Part shown: positions 7,886 through 29,131 of the stretch, one piece after another
Numbering within the stretch: position 1 is the stretch's first letter
Layout: every line of letters starts with the position of its first letter
NCBI GenBank assembly: GCA_015061495.1
Contig: SUWL01000022.1
Coordinates: 1 to 39,827, forward strand
Direction of reading: 5' to 3'
Source of the DNA: Lentisphaerota bacterium
GTDB lineage: Bacteria; Verrucomicrobiota; Lentisphaeria; Victivallales; Victivallaceae
Length of the DNA stretch: 39,827 bases
Position numbers and translations under genes: made by a program
Notes under the pieces: generated by a model
What the model was told of the DNA's origin: nothing
Database searches by the model: none
Seen by the model: the letters and a program-made list of their open reading frames with translations, nothing else

Positions 7886-9085
7886 ATGCAGCTGCTTTCC
7901 AATGAAGTCAAGGGCTACCTTGGCAACGCTTCCATGATCCGCCGGATGTTCGAGGCCGGTATCGAACTGAAACGTACCTACGGCGAAGATAACGTGTACG
8001 ACTTCTCCCTGGGTAACCCCGATCTGCCGCCGCCGCCGGAAATCAAAACCGCCATGCAGGAGATCGCCGAAAACAGCGATCAGCCATTCGCTTTCGGATA
8101 TATGCCCAACGCCGGAGAAAATTCCGCGCGCGAAGCACTCTCTCAACTCGTTTCCGATGAACAGGAACTCCACGTGCCCGCCGCCAATATCGTCGTTACC
8201 TGCGGCGCCGCCGGCGGTATCAACGCATTTTTCCGCGCAACCCTTACCCCCGGCGATGAAGTCATCTGTATCGCCCCCTACTTCGTGGAATACGGCTTCT
8301 ACGCCGGAAACTTCGGCGGCATCCTGAAACCCGTCATGTCCAATCCCGATTTCTCCCTCAATATCGATAATATCGCCGCCGCTATCAACCCCAAAACCCG
8401 CGCCATTATTCTCAATTCACCCAATAACCCCACCGGTAAGATCTACAACCGCACCGAACTCGATGCCGTCGCCAAACTCCTGACCGATGCCAGAAAAAAA
8501 TACGGCAGAATGATCTATATCGTTTCCGATGAACCATACCGCTTCCTCAATTACGACGGTACCCCCGTGCCATCCATGTTCAAAGTTTATGACGGTACCG
8601 TCGTCATCGGATCATTCTCCAAAACTTTGTCCCTCCCCGGCGCACGCATCGGATACGTCGCCGTTAACCCCAATCTGGAAAATTGCTCCGAACTCATCGG
8701 CGGACTTACCCTTACCAACCGTACTCTGGGATTCGTCAACGCTCCCGTCGTCGCCCAGAAACTGATCGCTAAATGCATCAACGCACGTATCGATCTGGAT
8801 GTCTACCGCCGCCGCCGTAACCTCATGGCTCAAATCCTTACCGATGCCGGAATCGAATTCATTATGCCAGGCGGCGCTTTCTACTTCTTCCCCAAATCTC
8901 CCGTGCCAGATGAAAAAATCTTTATCAACGCCCTGCTCAAAGAACGCATCCTCGCTGTCCCCGGCAGCGGCTTCGGTATGCCCGGCTACTTCCGCCTCGC
9001 TTTCTGCGTCTCCGAAAAAATCATCGCCGCCAGCGCCCCCTCCTTCTCCCACGCCCTTACTTCTTTTCGAGGAGAAAAGAAGTAA
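7886..9085 (+). CDS. Class I/II pyridoxal-phosphate aminotransferase
   Basis: Fold-type I PLP enzyme of 399 residues, of the aspartate/alanine aminotransferase type. Motifs are NSPNNPTGK (cofactor-ring contacts), VSDEPYRFL with the PLP-pyridine Asp, and SFSKTLSLPGARIGY, where Lys246 would form the Schiff base. Substrate cannot be read from sequence; the operon context (deacetylase, epimerase) would permit amino-sugar nitrogen or amino-acid metabolism. Oddly, the last residues (TSFRGEKK and the stop) are encoded by the first hairpin of the 91-92 bp repeat array, and the GckR-like gene at 26902-28593 ends the same way. The original C-terminus was therefore probably replaced or trimmed by the repeat. 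AAGGA precedes the start by nine bases. Confidence 0.88.
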   Translation: MQLLSNEVKGYLGNASMIRRMFEAGIELKRTYGEDNVYDFSLGNPDLPPPPEIKTAMQEIAENSDQPFAFGYMPNAGENSAREALSQLVSDEQELHVPAANIVVTCGAAGGINAFFRATLTPGDEVICIAPYFVEYGFYAGNFGGILKPVMSNPDFSLNIDNIAAAINPKTRAIILNSPNNPTGKIYNRTELDAVAKLLTDARKKYGRMIYIVSDEPYRFLNYDGTPVPSMFKVYDGTVVIGSFSKTLSLPGARIGYVAVNPNLENCSELIGGLTLTNRTLGFVNAPVVAQKLIAKCINARIDLDVYRRRRNLMAQILTDAGIEFIMPGGAFYFFPKSPVPDEKIFINALLKERILAVPGSGFGMPGYFRLAFCVSEKIIAASAPSFSHALTSFRGEKK

Positions 9086-9650
9086 GACAAGAAAAGCCAA
9101 CTACCCTACTTTCTTTTCCACGAAAAGAAAGTAGGCAAAGAAAAGCAATCATTACTTTTCGAGGAGAAAAGAAGTAAGACTGGAAAAGCCAACTACCCTG
9201 CTTTTTTTTTCACGAAAAGAACGTAGGCAAAGAAAAGCAATCATTACTTTTCGAGGAGAAAAGAAGTAAGGCAAGAAAAGCCAACTACCCTGCTTTTTTT
9301 CCACGAAAAGAAAGTAGGCAAAGAAAAGCAAAAATCACTTTTCGAGGAGAAAAGAAGTAAGACAGGAAAAGACAACTACCCTGCTTTTTTTTCCACGAAA
9401 AGAACGCAGGCAAAGAAAAGCGACTGTCTCTTTTCGGGGTGAAAAGAAGTAAGACAGGAAAAGCCGACTACCCTACTTTTTTTCCACGAAAAGAACGCAG
9501 GCAAAGAAAAGCAAAAATCACTTTTCGGGGTGAAAAGAAGTAAGACAAGAAAAGCCAACTACCCCTCTTTCTTTTCCACGAAAAGAACGCAGGCAAAGAA
9601 AAGCAATCATTTCTTTTCGAGGTGAAAAGAAGTAAGACAGGAAAAGACAA
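9056..9650. repeat. Tandem array of 91-92 bp double-hairpin repeats, array 1
   Basis: Six full units and a partial seventh begin at 9063, 9155, 9247, 9338, 9430, 9521 and 9613. Each unit holds two inverted repeats: CTTTTC-GAGGA-GAAAAG, and TTTCTTTTCC next to GAAAAGAAAG, linked by AAAAGCCAACTACCC-like spacers. The first hairpin (9056-9086) has perfect 13 bp arms and contains the aminotransferase stop codon. Units differ by scattered substitutions and are not separated by unique spacers. A related array lies at 28565-29030. Confidence 0.9.
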
Positions 9651-9972
9651 CTGTCGCGGCGGCTTCGCTCGCTTGCGGTGAATACAGTGCGAGGTAAGGT
9701 CGCCGTTAAACCGGGGCAACAGTGAAGGAGTGCAGCATACCTGCATGACTGAACTGTTGCCGCTGGTTTGACAAGAGATTACCCGCAATGTTTTCACCGC
9801 CTTGGTCGGGCGGGCGGACAAGCCGCCCTCAACGGTGGCTCTGCCCCGGTACCCCCCGAATGCCGGTCACCCAAAAACTGGCGTTTGTTATCGGCAATAA
9901 AGGTAAGCTGACAACGTTTTGAATACATCCCGGTTAAAGCCTCACAAGGAGGCGATCCGTCTCTGCTATGCT
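9651..9972. other. Non-coding stretch with a large inverted repeat
   Basis: No credible gene is seen. An imperfect inverted repeat spans 9708-9769 (AAACCGGGGCAACAGT against ACTGTTGCCGCTGGTTT) with an inner TGCAG/CTGCA pair, giving a long two-part hairpin. The sequence is G+C rich and lacks ribosome sites in front of its short open frames. Confidence 0.5.
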
Positions 9973-10439: not shown

Positions 10440-11063
10440 ATGGGTATGGGAGATCTTTTCAAATCCAGCCGTCAGATCGAACGGGAAAAAGAGCGGGCGA
10501 TCAAAAAGGCTATGCTCAATGCAAACAAGGCTTTGGCAACGGTCAAAAACCGCGGTGAAGTCCTCCGTCAGGAACGGGATAAAGCCTGGAACGACGCCCG
10601 GGAAAAACTCAAACAGGGGCAGAAAGCCGCCGCCCAGCGTCTGCTGCGTTCCGTACAAGCCAATGATGTCATGCTCCAGAAACTTGACCGTAAAGCGTGG
10701 GTTTTCAGCGAATATGTCACCAGTCTGGAAATGGCACGGACCGATGAAGCATTCGCCAAAGCTCTCGGCAAACTCAATGTCACTATGAAAATCAATCCCG
10801 ATCTGATCGCCAATACCATTGAAAAAACCGATATGATGCTTGAAGATCAGGCCGATGTCGAAGCCATCTGGGATGAAAAATACGGCGACAGCATGAATAA
10901 TCTCGCCTTGAATGATACGATCACTTCAGAAGCAGACTATATGGCGATGCTGGAAAATGAAGCCGCAGGTTCGATCGGCACTCCCAACGTTGCCACCGAC
11001 AGCAGCAATTCTGAAAAAATCAATGCCATCCGGGAAAAATTGAGCAGTCTGAACGCCAAGTGA
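10440..11063 (+). CDS. ESCRT-III/Snf7-like helical protein A
   Basis: A 207-residue, all-helical, highly charged protein that I read as a divergent ESCRT-III (Snf7/PspA) homologue. The short N-terminus (MGMGDLFKSS) could be a membrane-inserting segment. A basic helical hairpin (about 11-95) includes LKQGQKAAAQRLL at 57-69, resembling the Snf7 pattern in which a Gly and Lys precede an Ala-rich helix. A central region (103-165) with KINPDLIANTIEK and EDQADVEAIWDEKY resembles the alpha4-alpha5 region of Snf7/Vps24 proteins. An acidic, flexible tail ends in IREKLSSLNAK, matching the LxxRLxxL core of a MIM1 motif (I197, K200, L201, L204). It is clearly paralogous to the third gene of the operon. 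AGAGG seven bases upstream supports the start. PspA/Vipp1 membership is the main alternative. Confidence 0.65.
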   Translation: MGMGDLFKSSRQIEREKERAIKKAMLNANKALATVKNRGEVLRQERDKAWNDAREKLKQGQKAAAQRLLRSVQANDVMLQKLDRKAWVFSEYVTSLEMARTDEAFAKALGKLNVTMKINPDLIANTIEKTDMMLEDQADVEAIWDEKYGDSMNNLALNDTITSEADYMAMLENEAAGSIGTPNVATDSSNSEKINAIREKLSSLNAK

Positions 11064-11129
11064 TCACATTTTTCAGCAGTACTTTACAACCCAGATAACT
11101 TCAATAAAAATATACAGGAAATATCAATC

Positions 11130-11735
11130 ATGGCTATTAATGATGCATTGGCGGCTATCGCCCAGAAACTCGGTTTGGCAGATACTGAATTGTCCACTCT
11201 TGAAAAACAGTCTGCCACCGTCGCCCAGCAGATCCGCGACAATAAAGACCGCCTCTCCAACCTCAAGCTCAAAGTCGCCAACCTCGATGAACAGTTGAGC
11301 CGCAAAAAGAAAGAGTATGAAGCCGCAGGCGCCGGTATGAAAATGATCATCAAAGAGGAGATGAAGATCCTTTTCGCTTCCCAGGATCGGCTTTTCAAAG
11401 AAGAGATCGCCATTATTGCCGACCGGATCCAGAAAGATACTCTGCTCTACGACCGGATCCAGAACATGATCTTTTACGTCAAAAATCCCTCCCGGACCGA
11501 CCTTATCGCCGATATCGCCGCCGATCTGGAAATCCAGTATGATGCCATGGCAGAAGAAGATCAGGAGATCGACACCCTTGCCAACGCTGGCTATACCCGT
11601 CAGCAGAGTGTGGAAAACAGTGCTGCCGATGCCCAGTTTGATGCCTATATGAGCGGCAGTTCCAAACTCTCCTCCGCCGTGGATGCCGCACAGGAGGATG
11701 ACGACTTCCTCAAACGTTTAAGCGATGTCAACTGA
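11130..11735 (+). CDS. Coiled-coil protein B with C-terminal MIM1-like motif
   Basis: A 201-residue, almost entirely helical protein of unassigned family. Residues about 10-115 are coiled coil (LSTLEKQSATVAQQIRD; LKLKVANLDEQLSRKKKEY), followed by an acidic C-terminal third. The extreme C-terminus reads DDDFLKRLSDV at 190-200, fitting the eukaryotic MIM1 pattern (D/E)xxLxxRLxxL with Phe and Val replacing two leucines. This would be a natural ligand for the MIT-like domain of the operon ATPase. The overall plan (basic helices, acidic tail, terminal motif) parallels proteins A and C, so it may be a more divergent ESCRT-III-like subunit or an adaptor. The gene sits 66 bases after A and 41 before C. 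AGGAAA lies about 10 bases upstream of the start. Confidence 0.6.
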   Translation: MAINDALAAIAQKLGLADTELSTLEKQSATVAQQIRDNKDRLSNLKLKVANLDEQLSRKKKEYEAAGAGMKMIIKEEMKILFASQDRLFKEEIAIIADRIQKDTLLYDRIQNMIFYVKNPSRTDLIADIAADLEIQYDAMAEEDQEIDTLANAGYTRQQSVENSAADAQFDAYMSGSSKLSSAVDAAQEDDDFLKRLSDVN

Positions 11736-11776: not shown

Positions 11777-12418
11777 ATGGGATGGTTCTCTAAACTCGTT
11801 ACTCCGTCTTCCACCCTCAAACGTCAGGAAGAGCGTGAACGCCGCCGTGCCCTTAATGAAGCCAAACGTCTTGCCGACAGTACCAGCAGCCAGATCGAGA
11901 AACTCGGTCAGGAACGGGATAACGCCTGGGAAGAAGCCAAAGCATATCTCGCCCGGGGACAGAAAGCTGCCGCCCAGCGTTTGATCCAGACCGTCCGGGC
12001 AAAAGATGCCCAGATCCAGAAAATGGAAAAGAAAACCTGGGTTTTCAAAGAATATCTCGGCACTCTGGAAATGGCGGAAACCGATAAAATGCTGGCAGAG
12101 TCACTCAATGTCCTCAATCATGCCATGAATATCGATCCGGATAAAATCGCCGCCACCGTCGACCGCACTGAAGATCTGATTGCCGATCAGACCGACGTCG
12201 AATCCGTCTGGACTGAAAAATATAATGACAGCATGGGTACTCTTGCCCTCAATGATGCGATTCCTTCCGTGGAGCAGATGATGGGCGATCTGGAAGCAGA
12301 AGTCAGCGGCGATATTGCCCCGATGTCACAGATAAAAGTCGCCGATGATGCCGGAGTACAAACCGAAATCGACAGCAGACGCAGTCAGCTCTCTGCCATG
12401 CTTGCCGATAAACAGTAA
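11777..12418 (+). CDS. ESCRT-III/Snf7-like helical protein C
   Basis: A 213-residue paralogue of protein A: between about 43 and 160 roughly half the positions are identical by eye, including QERDNAWEEA, ARGQKAAAQRLI, KTWVFKEYL, TLEMAETD, ADQTDVESVW and TLALND. The N-terminus MGWFSKLVTPSS has a hydrophobic/basic pattern like the membrane-inserting N-termini of CHMP4/Snf7 proteins. Charge is polarised: basic helices 14-90, acidic region 130-190. The tail SQLSAMLADKQ is a weaker MIM1-like match than in A or B. Two paralogues plus a third helical protein suggest a hetero-polymer, as ESCRT-III subunits form. AAGGAA precedes the start. The function as a membrane-remodelling filament is inference from architecture and neighbours. 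Confidence 0.65.
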   Translation: MGWFSKLVTPSSTLKRQEERERRRALNEAKRLADSTSSQIEKLGQERDNAWEEAKAYLARGQKAAAQRLIQTVRAKDAQIQKMEKKTWVFKEYLGTLEMAETDKMLAESLNVLNHAMNIDPDKIAATVDRTEDLIADQTDVESVWTEKYNDSMGTLALNDAIPSVEQMMGDLEAEVSGDIAPMSQIKVADDAGVQTEIDSRRSQLSAMLADKQ

Positions 12419-12444: not shown

Positions 12445-13572
12445 ATGAGTGATTTTAATGCAAGCAAAAAAAAAGAGTTCGAAGATGCCGCAGTCAAGGC
12501 TGTTGAATGCAAGGATTATAAAAAGGCTTTCGCGTGTACTGTACAGGCAATCGAGTATACTTTGAAACTTGCCGAACAGTGCGGCGGCAAACTCGCCTGC
12601 GCCTATCTGGACGATGCCAACGGCTTGCTGGAAGTCGCCGCTCAACTCAAAGAAAAAGCCGCTCAAGCCCCCCAGATGGTCGCGGCCGACAGTGACGGTG
12701 CGGCGAAAAACGGCGAGGCTGCCGGGGACGATGATTCCAAGATGCGTCTGGCAGAATTGCCCAAAGAAAAACTCGCCGATGTCGCCGGTATGGATGCCGC
12801 CAAAAAGGAGGTGCTGGTCAAAGTTATCGCACCGATCAAAGATGCGGATAACGCCAGCAAATACGGTCTTAAAGCCGGCGGCGGTATGCTGCTGTACGGC
12901 TTGCCCGGCACCGGAAAAACCTTTTTCGCCAAGGCGGTCGCCGGTGAATTGGGGATGCCTTTTTATGTCTTTGAGACCTCCAAAGTGTTGAGCAAATACG
13001 TCGGCGAATCCCAGCAGAAACTGCAGGAACTCTTTGATTCCGCCCGCCAGAACCCCATGTCGGTGATCTTTATCGACGAAATCGATGCGATCCTCTCCAG
13101 CCGCGGCGGTGACAATGTCCATCAGACCAATAAAGATCTGGTCAATATCATCCTTACGGAAATGGACGGAATCTCTTCCGGAGGCAAAAATCCGTTCCTG
13201 CTGATCGGTGCGACCAACTATCCGGATAAAGTGGATGATGCCGCACTCTCCCGTTTCAGAGCTAAAATCGAGGTGGAACTGCCCAATGAGGATGTCCGCC
13301 GGAGCATTATCAAACGGGAACTGCTCAAACAGCTCTCCGAAGAGATCAAAGTCGATGACAATGCCCTGGGATTTCTGGTGGCATCCACCAATGGTTTCTC
13401 CGGTCGGGATCTGGTCACCGTTTGCACCGCCATCAGAGAAAATGCCTATCTGGGCAAATTGCCCCGCTTGACTCTGGAATTCTGCAAAGCCAATTTCGTG
13501 GATAACCACGTGGTCAGCAAAGAGGTCGCCGAATCCATTGCCAACTTCAAAAAGCGCATCGGAGCCCAATAA
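12445..13572 (+). CDS. AAA ATPase with N-terminal MIT-like domain (Vps4-like architecture)
   Basis: A 375-residue single-ring AAA protein. Residues about 8-72 form a three-helix MIT-like domain; DYKKAFACTVQAIEYTLKLAE at 24-44 lines up well with the second helix of Vps4 MIT domains. An acidic linker (80-100) leads to the AAA core: Walker A GLPGTGKT 152-159, pore loop KYVGES 184-189 (Tyr where Vps4 has Trp), Walker B VIFIDE 207-212, sensor 1 Asn258 in GATNYP, and Arg270/Arg272 as candidate arginine fingers. The Vps4 beta-domain insertion seems absent, consistent with the shorter length. Predicted role: ATP-driven extraction of subunits from the polymer made by A, B and C. GGAG lies nine bases before the ATG, 26 bases after gene C. 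FtsH, proteasomal and CDC48-type ATPases are less likely. Confidence 0.85.
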   Translation: MSDFNASKKKEFEDAAVKAVECKDYKKAFACTVQAIEYTLKLAEQCGGKLACAYLDDANGLLEVAAQLKEKAAQAPQMVAADSDGAAKNGEAAGDDDSKMRLAELPKEKLADVAGMDAAKKEVLVKVIAPIKDADNASKYGLKAGGGMLLYGLPGTGKTFFAKAVAGELGMPFYVFETSKVLSKYVGESQQKLQELFDSARQNPMSVIFIDEIDAILSSRGGDNVHQTNKDLVNIILTEMDGISSGGKNPFLLIGATNYPDKVDDAALSRFRAKIEVELPNEDVRRSIIKRELLKQLSEEIKVDDNALGFLVASTNGFSGRDLVTVCTAIRENAYLGKLPRLTLEFCKANFVDNHVVSKEVAESIANFKKRIGAQ

Positions 13573-13592: not shown

Positions 13593-14552
13593 ATGCCATT
13601 CGGTAGTGATGTTATCAAAAAAATCTTTACATTTACCCTGCTGGGCAGGATCGTCCCGGTTTTCGGCAGTCTGGCATTTGCCGTTTACATCGGTTTCATC
13701 GCCTGGCAGAGTGTCGGTCCGGAAAAACCCGAACCCGACCGCGCCCGGAAAACGATCGCCACTGCGGCGGTCAATAAAGCTGTCGAAGAGATCCGCGCTT
13801 CCCGCGGTGATATCCGCAGTGCCGTGATGGTGCATTTCGCCAACGACCCCTCGGACTTCGTTTCCGATGCGATGCGCAACAAACTCAATGCTTCCGGAGT
13901 GCTGTTCCTCGAAGATATCACCTTTTCCGAGAGGATCGACAAACTCCTGAATCTGCGTACCGAAGGCGTTTCCAGTACCAGAGATGCCCTCGCCGCCGCT
14001 AAAGGCTGCAATGTTGACGGTATCCTCTGGGGCAAAATTGACTCATTTGAATCCTTTGACAAAGGTGCGGTATTCACCGGCGAATGGACTTTGATCGACA
14101 AAAAAGGCAACGAGATCTGCCACGGTACATTCAATGAAGATACCACGGTCAAAAAGGTGGAAACCGCCAAAGCCGACGGCAAAGATAAAGATGCTCCGGC
14201 GGCAATCGACCTCGATCCGATCAAAAAAGAGCTGGAAAATGCCGCCGCTCCCGTCCGGCAGACCGCTTCCCAGATCCCCTGGTATCTGCGTTTCCTCGGA
14301 TTCGTACTGCTGGTGCTGATCCTGCCGGTGGTCACGATCAGTTTCCTGCGCTGGATGGTCAGCAAAAAATCCAACGGCATCAACGCCTTTGTGCTGGCTC
14401 TCTACACCATTATCGGAGCGATTTGCGCCTTTTTCATGATCGGCGGGGAATTCACCTCGATCTGGACGACTTTGCTCTTTATGGGCGCAGTGGTATTCTC
14501 GTTTTGCTACAATGTCGCCCTGATGAGTTTCGCACTGAAACTGGAAAGCTGA
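13593..14552 (+). CDS. Four-helix membrane protein with TolB-N/FlgO-like domain
   Basis: A 319-residue inner-membrane protein. Hydrophobic helices lie at about 18-39, 231-253, 263-284 and 290-313. Between the first and second is a domain (about 50-190) that reads like the TolB-N/FlgO/CsgG-type alpha/beta fold: KTIATAAVNKAVEEI, a strand SAVMVHF, STRDALAAAKGCNVDGILWGKI, and a strand pair ending WTLIDKKGNEICHGTF. In known relatives this fold binds proteins or peptidoglycan-associated partners in the periplasm. An acidic/Lys-rich linker (190-220) precedes the helical bundle. With four helices both termini are predicted on the same side, so the domain would be extracytoplasmic. AAGGAG precedes the ATG by nine bases, and the gene is 20 bases after the ATPase. 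It is a plausible sensor or membrane anchor for the system. Confidence 0.65.
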   Translation: MPFGSDVIKKIFTFTLLGRIVPVFGSLAFAVYIGFIAWQSVGPEKPEPDRARKTIATAAVNKAVEEIRASRGDIRSAVMVHFANDPSDFVSDAMRNKLNASGVLFLEDITFSERIDKLLNLRTEGVSSTRDALAAAKGCNVDGILWGKIDSFESFDKGAVFTGEWTLIDKKGNEICHGTFNEDTTVKKVETAKADGKDKDAPAAIDLDPIKKELENAAAPVRQTASQIPWYLRFLGFVLLVLILPVVTISFLRWMVSKKSNGINAFVLALYTIIGAICAFFMIGGEFTSIWTTLLFMGAVVFSFCYNVALMSFALKLES

Positions 14553-14559
14553 TCTTAAC

Positions 14560-16017
14560 ATGAAAAAAGCAGCTCTTTTCATCGGTATCAACACCTACGC
14601 CAACGGCATCTCCCCGCTGAAATACGCCATGGGAGATGCCAGCGATCTGAATGCTGAATTCAGCAGCGGCGGATTCCGCACCCGGCTGCTCTGTGACCAC
14701 AGTGCCACCGGAGAAGCGATAGTTGCCAAAACTAAAGAACTTATGCAGGAACTCCACGCCGGAGATATCTTTGTGTTTTACTTTTCCGGACACGGATACT
14801 TTGCCCAAGATCAACTCCATTTGCTGGGTGTTTCCGCTGAAGCTGCTCTGCTGGATGCCGGATACGGTATGCTGCCGCTGCCGGTCATCGAAAAACTTAC
14901 CTGCAAACCGGGCGTGAAACGGTTTTTCATCCTCGATTGCTGTCAAAACGCCCTCCACGCCGGGGGCAAAGCCATTGCTCTTTGTCAGAAACCGGTGGAG
15001 TGTACTGCTTCAAACGGCGGCGAACTGCCATTGATTCTGACCTCATGTTCAGTAGGCGAGATCTCTTTTGAAGATCCCGCCAGCGGGCATTCGCTTTTCA
15101 CCAATGCAGTATTGAATACTCTGCGCTCCAGTACCGCCGGAACCATTTCAGCATTTCTTCTTTCGCTGAAACATCACATGAGTTCCGCAGTACAGCACCC
15201 GTGCATATCCGGAAATATCACCGGATGGGAAAATGTCCCGTTATTCGGCACCACGGATGTTCAGGAAGAGACCGCTCCGCCTCCGCCGCCTCCGGTAAAC
15301 ACCGTGCCGGAAACTTCTCACACTGATTCGCTGGATGCGGCACTGCACGATTCTGAATGCGGCGAAATGATAAATTTGCTGCAGAATAATATCAATTTTC
15401 TGCGGCAGGCGGAACAAAACGAAGTTATCCGCAATTTCGCCGGTATCCAGACCACGGTCGCGGATAATGCCAAAAAAGCCTTCGCCGCCGGCAACCGCAA
15501 TCTGGCTATGCAGATCCTCACCGATAACCGCCAGGAGTGTACCCGGATCGCCAAACAATCTGCCGCTAAAGGAAAATACGATCATGCGGCAATAGCTGCC
15601 GCTTTCGCCGATCAGAGCGATCCGGAAATCATCAAAATCATGGTCAGTTCAGCGGGAAAAATCATCCCTTACTGTCCGGAATTTTACCGGGGATTATTCT
15701 ATTACGATACACTTTTCGGCGATTCCCGGCTCAACTGGTTCCTGCGGCAATCATTTGCCCAACTGCCGGCAATGCAGCGTTTCAGCAGCAAGAGGGATTT
15801 CAAAATCGCTATCCGTAAAAATATCCCGCCGACCTTCGGGATGCGTTTCAAATTCGCACTTTTCATAATCAGTTTATTAATTACCTATGTGGGTATTTTT
15901 CTTGTACTCCTGATCGACATGCTGAATAATTTTTACGCCGGGCAATTCGCATACTATGATCCGGAACTGTACGGAAAACTGTTCCTGAAAAATGTCCACC
16001 GCCTCAACCGGAAATGA
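14560..16017 (+). CDS. Membrane-anchored caspase-like protease (peptidase C14 family)
   Basis: A 485-residue protein whose first 230 residues form a caspase/metacaspase-like domain: AALFIGINTY at 4-13, the catalytic His78 in SGHG, and the Cys in DCCQN, where Cys128 corresponds to the second Cys of the metacaspase DCCHSG motif. A Pro-rich linker (about 239-250) leads to a helical region (255-350) with repeat-like AKKAFAAGNRNLAMQIL, possibly TPR-like, and a membrane helix at about 431-456 near the C-terminus. The protease domain is therefore probably cytoplasmic and tethered to the inner membrane. It begins seven bases after the membrane-protein gene, so co-translation is likely. By analogy with other bacterial C14 proteins near signalling or conflict modules, it may be the effector. 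Its 3' end overlaps the convergent DeoR gene by 14 bases. Confidence 0.85.
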   Translation: MKKAALFIGINTYANGISPLKYAMGDASDLNAEFSSGGFRTRLLCDHSATGEAIVAKTKELMQELHAGDIFVFYFSGHGYFAQDQLHLLGVSAEAALLDAGYGMLPLPVIEKLTCKPGVKRFFILDCCQNALHAGGKAIALCQKPVECTASNGGELPLILTSCSVGEISFEDPASGHSLFTNAVLNTLRSSTAGTISAFLLSLKHHMSSAVQHPCISGNITGWENVPLFGTTDVQEETAPPPPPPVNTVPETSHTDSLDAALHDSECGEMINLLQNNINFLRQAEQNEVIRNFAGIQTTVADNAKKAFAAGNRNLAMQILTDNRQECTRIAKQSAAKGKYDHAAIAAAFADQSDPEIIKIMVSSAGKIIPYCPEFYRGLFYYDTLFGDSRLNWFLRQSFAQLPAMQRFSSKRDFKIAIRKNIPPTFGMRFKFALFIISLLITYVGIFLVLLIDMLNNFYAGQFAYYDPELYGKLFLKNVHRLNRK

Positions 16018-26901: not shown

Positions 26902-28593
26902 ATGAGTAATGCACTTCAAGCCGCAATGGATTTTATAGAAAATGAGCAGCAGTTTCATCTCGGTTTCCTGCCCACCGAACAATCCAGCCCCCTGACCCGG
27001 GAACTGGACAAAAAATTTGCCGCTTCTTATGCCGATGGTGTCCGCAATCTGCAGAGCGTTGACCGCAACGTCGCTGAAATGGCAAAACGCATTTTTGCTT
27101 CTCCGGAATTCGCAAAACTCGTCGATACCGGTGAAAAAATCCTGCGTAACGGCGGCAAAATCATCTTTTCCGGATGCGGCGCCACCGGCCGTTTGAGCAT
27201 CCTGCTGGAGTGTATGTGGCGCAGCTGCTGCGCCGGTACCCCCGCCGCCGCAGCCTACGCCGATCAGGTTTTCAGCATCATGACCGGCGGCGATTACGCT
27301 CTGGTCAAGTCCGTGGAATTTTTTGAAGATTATCAGGTTTTCGGCCGCCGTCAGGTGCAGGAACACAATATGGGCAGCCGCGATATGCTCGTCGCTATCA
27401 CCGAAGGCGGCGAAACTTCTTCCGTATTAGGTTCGGTTTTTGAAGCACTTGACCGCGGTTGTCAGGTCTTTCTCATGTTCAACAACCCCGCCGATCTGCT
27501 CGCTGAACATCTCGAACGCTCACGTAAAGCGATCCGCGATCCCCGGGTTTGCATACTCGACCTCTCCTGCGGCCCCATGGCTCTGGCAGGTTCCACCCGG
27601 ATGCAGGCAACCACCAGCGAACAACTCGTCGCCGGCGGCGCACTGGAATCCATTATGAACCGGATCACCGGCACAAAATCCCCGGATTACGCCGCCGAAT
27701 TTGAAAAACTCCTCGATGATCTGGAATCACCCGCCGCCGTGGACGGCATCGCCGATTATATCGCTTTTGAAACCGGTCTCTACCGTAAAAAAGCTCTTGT
27801 AACCTACTTCGCCGATGAATATCTGCTGGATATCTTTACCGATACCACCGAACGTTCCCCGACATTCATGCTCCCCCCATTCCGCAAAAACGATGACCGG
27901 ATATCCCCGCCATCATGGGCGTTCGTCAAAAACCCGCTCCATTCCACCACCGAAACCTGGCAGTTGGGCATGCACAGACCTTTGCGCTGCCTGGAATGGG
28001 AAACCTCTGACTATTTCAATATGGGTATCCCAGAATCTTTGAGCAATAATCCACCCAAAATCCGCGCCGCCGAATTGCTCAAATTCGAAGTCGGTAACGA
28101 AAATCCCGCCGAACGCGCCGCCACCGGTAACGATGCCGCCGTTTTGATCACCGTCGGAAATCAACCATGCCCGGATAATCTGAATCAGGCTTTCCAACAC
28201 ATCAACGCCCCTTTTGCCCACTTCAAATACCTGTGCATCGGCGGAAATCACCACGCCGATTTCAACGTCCCATGCAATATCTCCGAATCTCCACTCCACC
28301 TCATGGGACATTTGGCTGTCAAACTCGTACTCAATACCGTTTCCACCGGTACCATGGCAGCCCTCGGCAGAATCACCGGCAACTGGATGAGCTGGGTCAA
28401 CGTTTCCAATAAAAAACTTATGGATCGCGGTATCCGGCTGATCTGCGAAATCGGTAAAACCGACTACAAAACCGCCTGTATCAAACTCCACGAAGGTATC
28501 GAATACATGGCCGCCCATCAAGACGCTTCCACCGAAGCCGAATCCATCGTCCAATACGTCCTCTCTTACTTCTTTTCACGAGAAAAGAAGTAA
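26902..28593 (+). CDS. GckR/MurQ-like SIS-domain protein
   Basis: A 563-residue protein with SIS (sugar isomerase) folds. The first SIS region has SGCGATGRLS near 89-98, GGDYALVKSVEFFED, and AITEGGETSSV, matching the phosphosugar-binding loops of MurQ and GckR; AGSTRMQATTSEQL follows. It is almost twice the length of MurQ (about 300), like the two-SIS-domain glucokinase-regulatory-protein type, with a second SIS-like half in the C-terminal part (AAVLITVGNQPCPD). It could be a lyase of N-acetylmuramate-6-phosphate or a sugar-phosphate-responsive regulator. GGGAAG precedes the ATG. The final residues SYFFSREKK and the stop lie in the first hairpin of repeat array 2, just as in the aminotransferase at 7886-9085. 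Confidence 0.8.
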   Translation: MSNALQAAMDFIENEQQFHLGFLPTEQSSPLTRELDKKFAASYADGVRNLQSVDRNVAEMAKRIFASPEFAKLVDTGEKILRNGGKIIFSGCGATGRLSILLECMWRSCCAGTPAAAAYADQVFSIMTGGDYALVKSVEFFEDYQVFGRRQVQEHNMGSRDMLVAITEGGETSSVLGSVFEALDRGCQVFLMFNNPADLLAEHLERSRKAIRDPRVCILDLSCGPMALAGSTRMQATTSEQLVAGGALESIMNRITGTKSPDYAAEFEKLLDDLESPAAVDGIADYIAFETGLYRKKALVTYFADEYLLDIFTDTTERSPTFMLPPFRKNDDRISPPSWAFVKNPLHSTTETWQLGMHRPLRCLEWETSDYFNMGIPESLSNNPPKIRAAELLKFEVGNENPAERAATGNDAAVLITVGNQPCPDNLNQAFQHINAPFAHFKYLCIGGNHHADFNVPCNISESPLHLMGHLAVKLVLNTVSTGTMAALGRITGNWMSWVNVSNKKLMDRGIRLICEIGKTDYKTACIKLHEGIEYMAAHQDASTEAESIVQYVLSYFFSREKK

Positions 28594-29030
28594 GACAAGA
28601 AAAGCGAGATTCCCTACTTTCTTTTCCTGAAAAGAAAGTAGGCAAAGAAAAGCAATAATTTCTTTTCACGAGAAAAGAAGTAAGACAAGAAAAGCGAAAT
28701 TCCCTACTTTCTTTTCCTGAAAAGAAAGTAGGCAAAGAAAAGCAATAATTTCTTTTCACGAGAAAAGAAGTAAGACAGGAAAAGCGAGATTCCCTGCTTT
28801 CTTTTCCAGAAAAGAACGCAGGCAAAGAAAAGCGATAATTTCTTTTCACGGGAAAAGAAGTAAGACAGGAAAAGCGAAATTCCCTACTTTCTTTTCCAGA
28901 AAAGAAAGTAGGCAAAGAAAAGCGATAATTTCTTTTCACGGGAAAAGAAGTAAGACAGGAAAAGCGAAATTCCCTACTTTCTTTTCCAGAAAAGAAAGTA
29001 GGCAAAGAAAAGCGATAATTTCTTTTCACG
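28565..29030. repeat. Tandem array of exact 90 bp double-hairpin repeats, array 2
   Basis: Five full units and a partial sixth start at 28572, 28662, 28752, 28842, 28932 and 29022, exactly 90 bases apart. Each has a CTTTTC-ACGA-GAAAAG hairpin and a CTACTTTC/GAAAGTAG hairpin. The first hairpin (28565-28594) has perfect 13 bp arms and holds the stop codon of the GckR-like gene. Because the period is a multiple of three, a reverse frame stays open through all units. The remaining 29031-29131 holds no gene. Confidence 0.92.
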
Positions 29031-29131
29031 AGAGCGGAAATCCGCCCTGTTTATCAATTTAAGACTGCCTTGATGGTGATTAAGCGTGCAATATGCATGC
29101 CAAACAAGGCACCGCATTGCCTTAATAACCG

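Follow-up and report, generated by a model that had tools for sequence, protein, structure and literature searches.

The window, i.e. the whole analyzed stretch of 39,827 nucleotides from a Lentisphaerota bacterium (contig SUWL01000022.1), carries an operon of six genes, A to F, all located on the forward strand with intergenic gaps of 7 to 66 bases between the open reading frames (Table 1). The product of gene A ends with SEKINAIREKLSSLNAK and that of gene B with EDDDFLKRLSDVN, the last residue of B being N (...LSDVN). The sequence-only reading of this DNA had quoted the tail of A correctly and had omitted this final residue of B. For protein E, the Pfam search gave no match. Several homologues of protein F adjoin the operon in locus L023, where four caspase-domain-like proteins, one papain-like peptidase and one DUF4384 protein flank it (L023:918-16981). 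The window also contains two tandem-repeat arrays (9063-9652 and 28570-29033) with units of about 92 and 90 bp in 6.4 and 5.2 copies. The units of both arrays are alike (AAAAGAAGTAAGACAGGAAAAGC-type), and one of the arrays lies just upstream of the operon. The host genome is bacterial, as it encodes a bacterial RpoB (1688 bits) and contains a tubulin/FtsZ-family gene. A match to PspA_IM30 was not found in this genome (89% completeness).

Table 1. Features of the operon in the window and natural fusion genes in related loci.
Feature	Position	Strand	Basis or remark
Protein A, ESCRT-III (Snf7)-like, 207 aa	10440..11063	+	Pfam Snf7, SNF7 profile, family model
A C-terminal tail, EKINAIREKLSSLNAK	11013..11060	+	variant of IxxGxx[RK]ΦxxΦL; Ile where the family has Gly
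Protein B, helical hairpin, 201 aa	11130..11735	+	AF2 helices 20-65, 68-118, 120-157
B tail, EDDDFLKRLSDVN	11694..11732	+	variant of the B-family motif [FL][DE]xxL[AS]xF
Protein C, ESCRT-III-like paralogue of A, 213 aa	11777..12418	+	44% identity to A
C tail, TEIDSRRSQLSAMLADKQ	12362..12415	+	family motif, Arg where the family has Gly
MIT-like N-terminal domain of D	12445..12660	+	fold of the family MIT model
Protein D, Vps4/CdvC-like AAA ATPase, 375 aa	12445..13572	+	Pfam AAA 5.3e-39; NCBIfam CdvC 2.6e-40; tree
Protein E, conserved membrane protein	13593..14552	+	most loci sharing the window's subtype have a homologue
Protein F, caspase-domain protein	14560..16017	+	Pfam Peptidase_C14 5.5e-20
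ESCRT-III-AAA fusion gene, L122	6721-8112		natural, no MIT
ESCRT-III-AAA fusion gene, L123	1256-2668		natural, no MIT
ESCRT-III-AAA fusion gene, L124	6299-7849		natural, no MIT
ESCRT-III-AAA fusion gene, L125	7002-8417		natural, no MIT

Protein A matches Pfam Snf7 above the cutoff (8.6e-7, 29.2 bits, cutoff 27.3), and its paralogue C matches below the cutoff (2e-4). With a profile of 20 A-family proteins, yeast SNF7 was the best match (1.3e-8), and Heimdall ESCRT-IIIB was also reached (0.0032). For structural comparison we modelled the A protein of L032 as one chain with the MIT encoded after it, translating the natural DNA through the stop codons, which were read as Gly. The resulting structure shows helices at residues 3-7, 11-59, 63-117, 121-162 and 165-180, a tail helix at 191-204 and three MIT helices. 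The model superposes on IST1 (Z 9.8), Asgard ESCRT-IIIB (Z 9.3), Snf7 (Z 9.2; 108 residues, 2.1 Å) and Vipp1 (Z 8.7). The ESCRT-III architecture predicted for A from this family member consists of an N-terminal amphipathic stretch, the alpha1-alpha2 hairpin and alpha3-alpha4. The MIT part of the model resembles the MIT domains of VPS4A (Z 10.6, rmsd 1.6 Å) and Sulfolobus Vps4 (Z 10.2). As neither the PDB sequence-profile search nor Pfam (16 members) named an MIT in the D family, this domain is accepted by its fold alone. For helical folds such Z values count as moderate, and they were therefore relied upon jointly with the profile and the gene linkage. Protein D itself matches NCBIfam CdvC over residues 12-327 with 138.5 bits against a cutoff of 650, and FtsH/CDC48 models score alike.

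In a sample across the phylum, A-family genes were detected in 16 of 388 genomes and 13 of 198 genera; they are commoner in one order (25/162). A occurs as a gene of its own in 37 loci. In 32 of them, a D gene with an MIT is found on the same strand no more than 3.6 kb away; in the remaining five (L066, L067, L112, L114, L116), A is close to where its contig ends. Four genomes (L122-L125) encode an ESCRT-III-like N-terminal hairpin that is fused straight to a Vps4-like AAA. These fusion proteins contain neither an MIT domain nor the tail motif described below, and no MIT was found elsewhere in the four genomes (74 to 97% complete). That tail and MIT are missing together would be expected if the fusion renders a tether superfluous. 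Taken together, the Snf7 match, the SNF7 profile, the MIT fold, the linkage of A and D and the A-AAA fusions make an ESCRT-III/Vps4-like identity of the operon well supported, and the earlier assignment of the operon to the ESCRT system is upheld on these grounds.

The loci differ in composition. L028, L029 and similar loci form another subtype with zinc-ribbon SPFH/Band_7 and FHA proteins, in which the B-like proteins are longer and have a cysteine-rich N-terminus. The D homologues of L031 (5962-8982), L032 (2372-4762) and L033 (941-3166) have two AAA domains after the MIT, and that of L031 extends further at its C-terminus into a region that contains a HELGH metalloprotease-like motif. In one genus (L118:8075-9172, L036, L119-L121), the same MIT type is found on another AAA class, AAA_lid_6 (CbbX/SpoVK-like), and this gene adjoins an A-family gene.

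The sequence-only reading had classified the C-termini of A and B as MIM1-like motifs and had counted this as independent support for the ESCRT assignment. We compared the MIM1 positions (D/E)-6, L-3, R0, L+1, L+4 and K/R+5 and searched for two degenerate patterns, an A-type (Hxx[RK]HxxH) and a B-type ([DE]xxHxx[RK]HxxH), where H stands for LIVMF. The background consisted of 345 non-overlapping ORFs. The A tail of the window fits the A-type pattern and its B tail the B-type pattern. Since the A-type pattern is frequent in the background (22/345 last-25 tails, 9/345 last-15 tails), the match of A is unremarkable when taken alone. Among the 43 A-family tails it occurs once, in the window's own A, and the strict LxxRLxxL was found in none of the 43. 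The family consensus is I-x-x-G-[RQ]-x-[RK]-[VL]-[KR]-x-[LI]-L, which is present in 23/43 A-family tails compared to 2/345 background tails and is preceded by a variable linker. Among the tails which do not fit are that of L033 and those of one of two copies in L031 and one of four copies in L032. In the 25 A/C tails that align in register, position -6 is I/L/V/A in all cases and never the acid of MIM1. Position -3, Leu in MIM1, is Gly in 23 tails, with Ile and Arg only in A and C of the window. R/K occupies position 0 in 20 tails, V/L/I position +1 in all 25 and K/R position +2 in 20, while L/I/M at +4 and L/M/I at +5 (K/R in MIM1) are found in 24 tails each. The A/C motif thus agrees with MIM1 at three of six positions (0, +1, +4).

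The B-type pattern was found in none of the 345 background tails (last 25 residues) and in 2 of 34 B homologues, namely in the window and L109. A different motif, [FL]-[DE]-x-x-L-[AS]-x-F, is shared by 24 of the 34 homologues (e.g. DDFDAELAGF, ESFADKLAEF and NLEDALAEF). It is mostly internal, often 10 to 60 residues ahead of the C-terminus. The segment DDFLKRLSDV of the window is a divergent instance of this motif, and most homologues do not share its Arg. As the motif is kept in two fusion loci, L122 and L124, and no MIT was found in either genome, it is probably no MIT ligand, and the sequence comparison indicates that it probably has another partner. Protein B gave no match to Pfam Snf7 and no profile link to the A family by hhalign (6% probability). 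The structural matches of its model lack specificity, since Snf7 and PspA appear there amid numerous other coiled coils, and the hairpin is likewise unspecific; B is thus left as a candidate ESCRT-III member.

The similarity to a degenerate MIM1 therefore stands for the window's own letters and is not found in the relatives. When orthologous C-termini are aligned, conservation does not fall on the MIM1 positions; these C-terminal regions are conserved under different motifs. Judged by the sequences of the relatives, MIM1 is the wrong name for the A/C motif as well as for the B motif, and the MIM1 reading of the A and B tails was rejected. For the same reason, the match gives no independent support for the ESCRT assignment. 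The conserved A/C tail may do the job of a MIM.

Several observations bear on a contact between this tail and the MIT of D. Two clades possess an MIT without the tail motif, with ends LEKEL and PSAV/SSAV. Their MIT domains have lost F29, H31, E37, F38, the hydrophobic residue 40 and Q45, which are conserved elsewhere, and still have the core residues A19, A28, A43, G48 and A65. Wherever an MIT has both His12 and His31 (20 domains), it goes with Gly(-3), and 11 of the 12 MITs paired with tails without Gly(-3) lack both residues. L126 is an exception, with Gly(-3) retained and neither His present. The window has Phe12/Cys31 in its MIT and Ile/Arg at -3 and differs in this respect from L023, L032 and L035 of the same genus. 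In the D tree it groups with L033, apart from both motif-less clades, so that the His/Gly change probably arose more than once. An all-pairs mutual-information control with APC in the motif-bearing loci gave 0.172 for tail-MIT pairs versus 0.202 for A-core-MIT pairs. As the tail columns show no excess of covariation, the His/Gly association can be explained by lineage divergence; it is consistent with a tail-MIT contact, although not decisive. In the joined A-linker-MIT model, several four-helix matches begin at 191-198 and run to 300-305. Here the tail helix (pLDDT about 60; model pTM 0.49) appears, with low confidence, to pack against the MIT. The construct itself favours such a contact, as it ties the tail to the MIT at a distance of 22 residues. 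At similarly low confidence, the order of the four-helix matches suggests a contact on the H1/H3 side and not in the type 1 H2/H3 groove, following the classification of MIT-MIM contacts in eLife 2022 (PMC9477494). Binding of the A/C tail to the MIT of D is the best explanation of these observations; it is unproven, and we consider it fairly probable.

A true MIM1, with the A and B tails in the H2/H3 groove of the MIT as in VPS4-CHMP1A, would agree with the degenerate pattern in the letters of the window, with the MIT fold of D and with the conserved residues at 0, +1 and +4 of A/C. The pattern is however limited to 1/43 A and 2/34 B relatives, the A/C family has Gly for Leu(-3), Ile for the acid(-6) and Leu for K/R(+5), and the B motif persists without an MIT. 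The orthologues largely refute this reading, and we regard it as very unlikely. A kinship-free origin of A and C, i.e. ordinary coiled coils whose similarity to ESCRT-III stems from coiled-coil bias, might account for the modest Snf7 scores and for middling structural Z values of helical models. It is hardly credible given that SNF7 is the best profile match and Asgard ESCRT-IIIB is also reached, that alpha1-alpha2 of Snf7 is aligned over 108 residues at 2.1 Å and that the MIT-AAA neighbour is regular; B, by contrast, gave nothing but unspecific coiled-coil matches.

C-terminal helices of ESCRT-III are capable of autoinhibition. The A/C tail could accordingly be an autoinhibitory or polymer-contact helix which folds back onto the ESCRT-III core without binding the MIT, and the covariation control, which does not favour tail-MIT pairs, would fit such a role. 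Nevertheless, the fusion proteins keep the hairpin and miss motif and MIT together, and the motif comes after a low-confidence linker, so we judge this alternative unlikely, though worth keeping in mind. Binding of the tail to another protein of the operon (B, E or an SPFH/FHA neighbour) or to the membrane is quite unlikely in our view. The helix is amphipathic and basic and the neighbours are conserved, which speaks for such binding, but the neighbours vary by subtype while the motif is constant across families and classes, and its loss is accompanied by changes of the MIT surface. The ESCRT-like operon is real and MIM1 was wrong in detail; the leading hypothesis is that A and C carry a noncanonical MIM.

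The operon resembles the eukaryotic and archaeal ESCRT-III and Vps4/CdvC systems in its Snf7-like subunits with the alpha0 stretch and alpha1-alpha2 hairpin, in the adjacent MIT-AAA gene and in the amphipathic C-terminal helix past a flexible linker. It differs from them in its bacterial host (FtsZ-family gene, bacterial RpoB), in the tail IxxGxxR-hydrophobic-xx-hydrophobic-L instead of MIM1 and in its caspase, papain-like, DUF4384, SPFH and FHA neighbours. As in MIM1 of the CHMP1A/Vps2 tails, the A/C motif forms an amphipathic helix near the ESCRT-III C-terminus with R/K and hydrophobic residues at +1 and +4, whereas Gly(-3), Ile(-6) and Leu(+5) set it apart. The bacterial PspA/Vipp1 proteins share the hairpin of the ESCRT-III superfamily, and the model of A superposes on Vipp1; PspA_IM30 was not found in the window's genome. 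Whether bacterial PspA/Vipp1 proteins have a Vps4-like ATPase was called unclear (Cell 2021, PMC8281802). ESCRT components were described as absent from bacteria, with ESCRT-III and the Vps4-type MIT ATPase being archaeal/eukaryotic (mBio 2024, PMC10936438). Transfer of VPS4-like AAA to bacteria was reported, including some operons that pair PspA/Snf7 with AAA and the displacement, by a TPR-6TM gene, of snf7 beside the VPS4-like gene (mSystems 2024, PMC11237479). Unlike in those loci, the Snf7-like genes are retained here. In the open-access literature that was searched, we found no description of a bacterial Snf7-Vps4 system in this phylum.

In our proposal, this operon gives rise to a bacterial machine of the ESCRT-III/Vps4 type that remodels membranes. 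A and C would be the ESCRT-III subunits, which may polymerise on the membrane via the modelled N-terminal amphipathic stretch and alpha1-alpha2 hairpin, and D would be the AAA ATPase that bears the MIT. Serving as a noncanonical MIM, the amphipathic helix at the C-terminus of A and C would dock on the MIT of D, and the docked D could then pull subunits out of the polymer, driven by ATP. The B motif would bind a separate partner and not the MIT. We hold this proposal as a whole, including the noncanonical MIM and the other partner of B, with moderate confidence. Envelope repair, vesicle formation and a caspase-linked stress response are candidate cellular roles, none of which is singled out by these data. 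In the wider phylum, the odds lie slightly in favour of a bacterial ESCRT-III/Vps4 machine in at least two classes, with a Gly-containing MIT-interaction motif that forms a class of its own and with the MIT-tail contact replaced at least once by a covalent ESCRT-III-ATPase fusion.

These operons show that a motif match which looks plausible in a single sequence may be misleading before relatives are compared. They also make a Vps4-like motor for bacterial ESCRT-III testable in bacteria. How such a motor engages the filament could be studied in the natural ESCRT-III-AAA fusions, which represent a minimal system in one chain.
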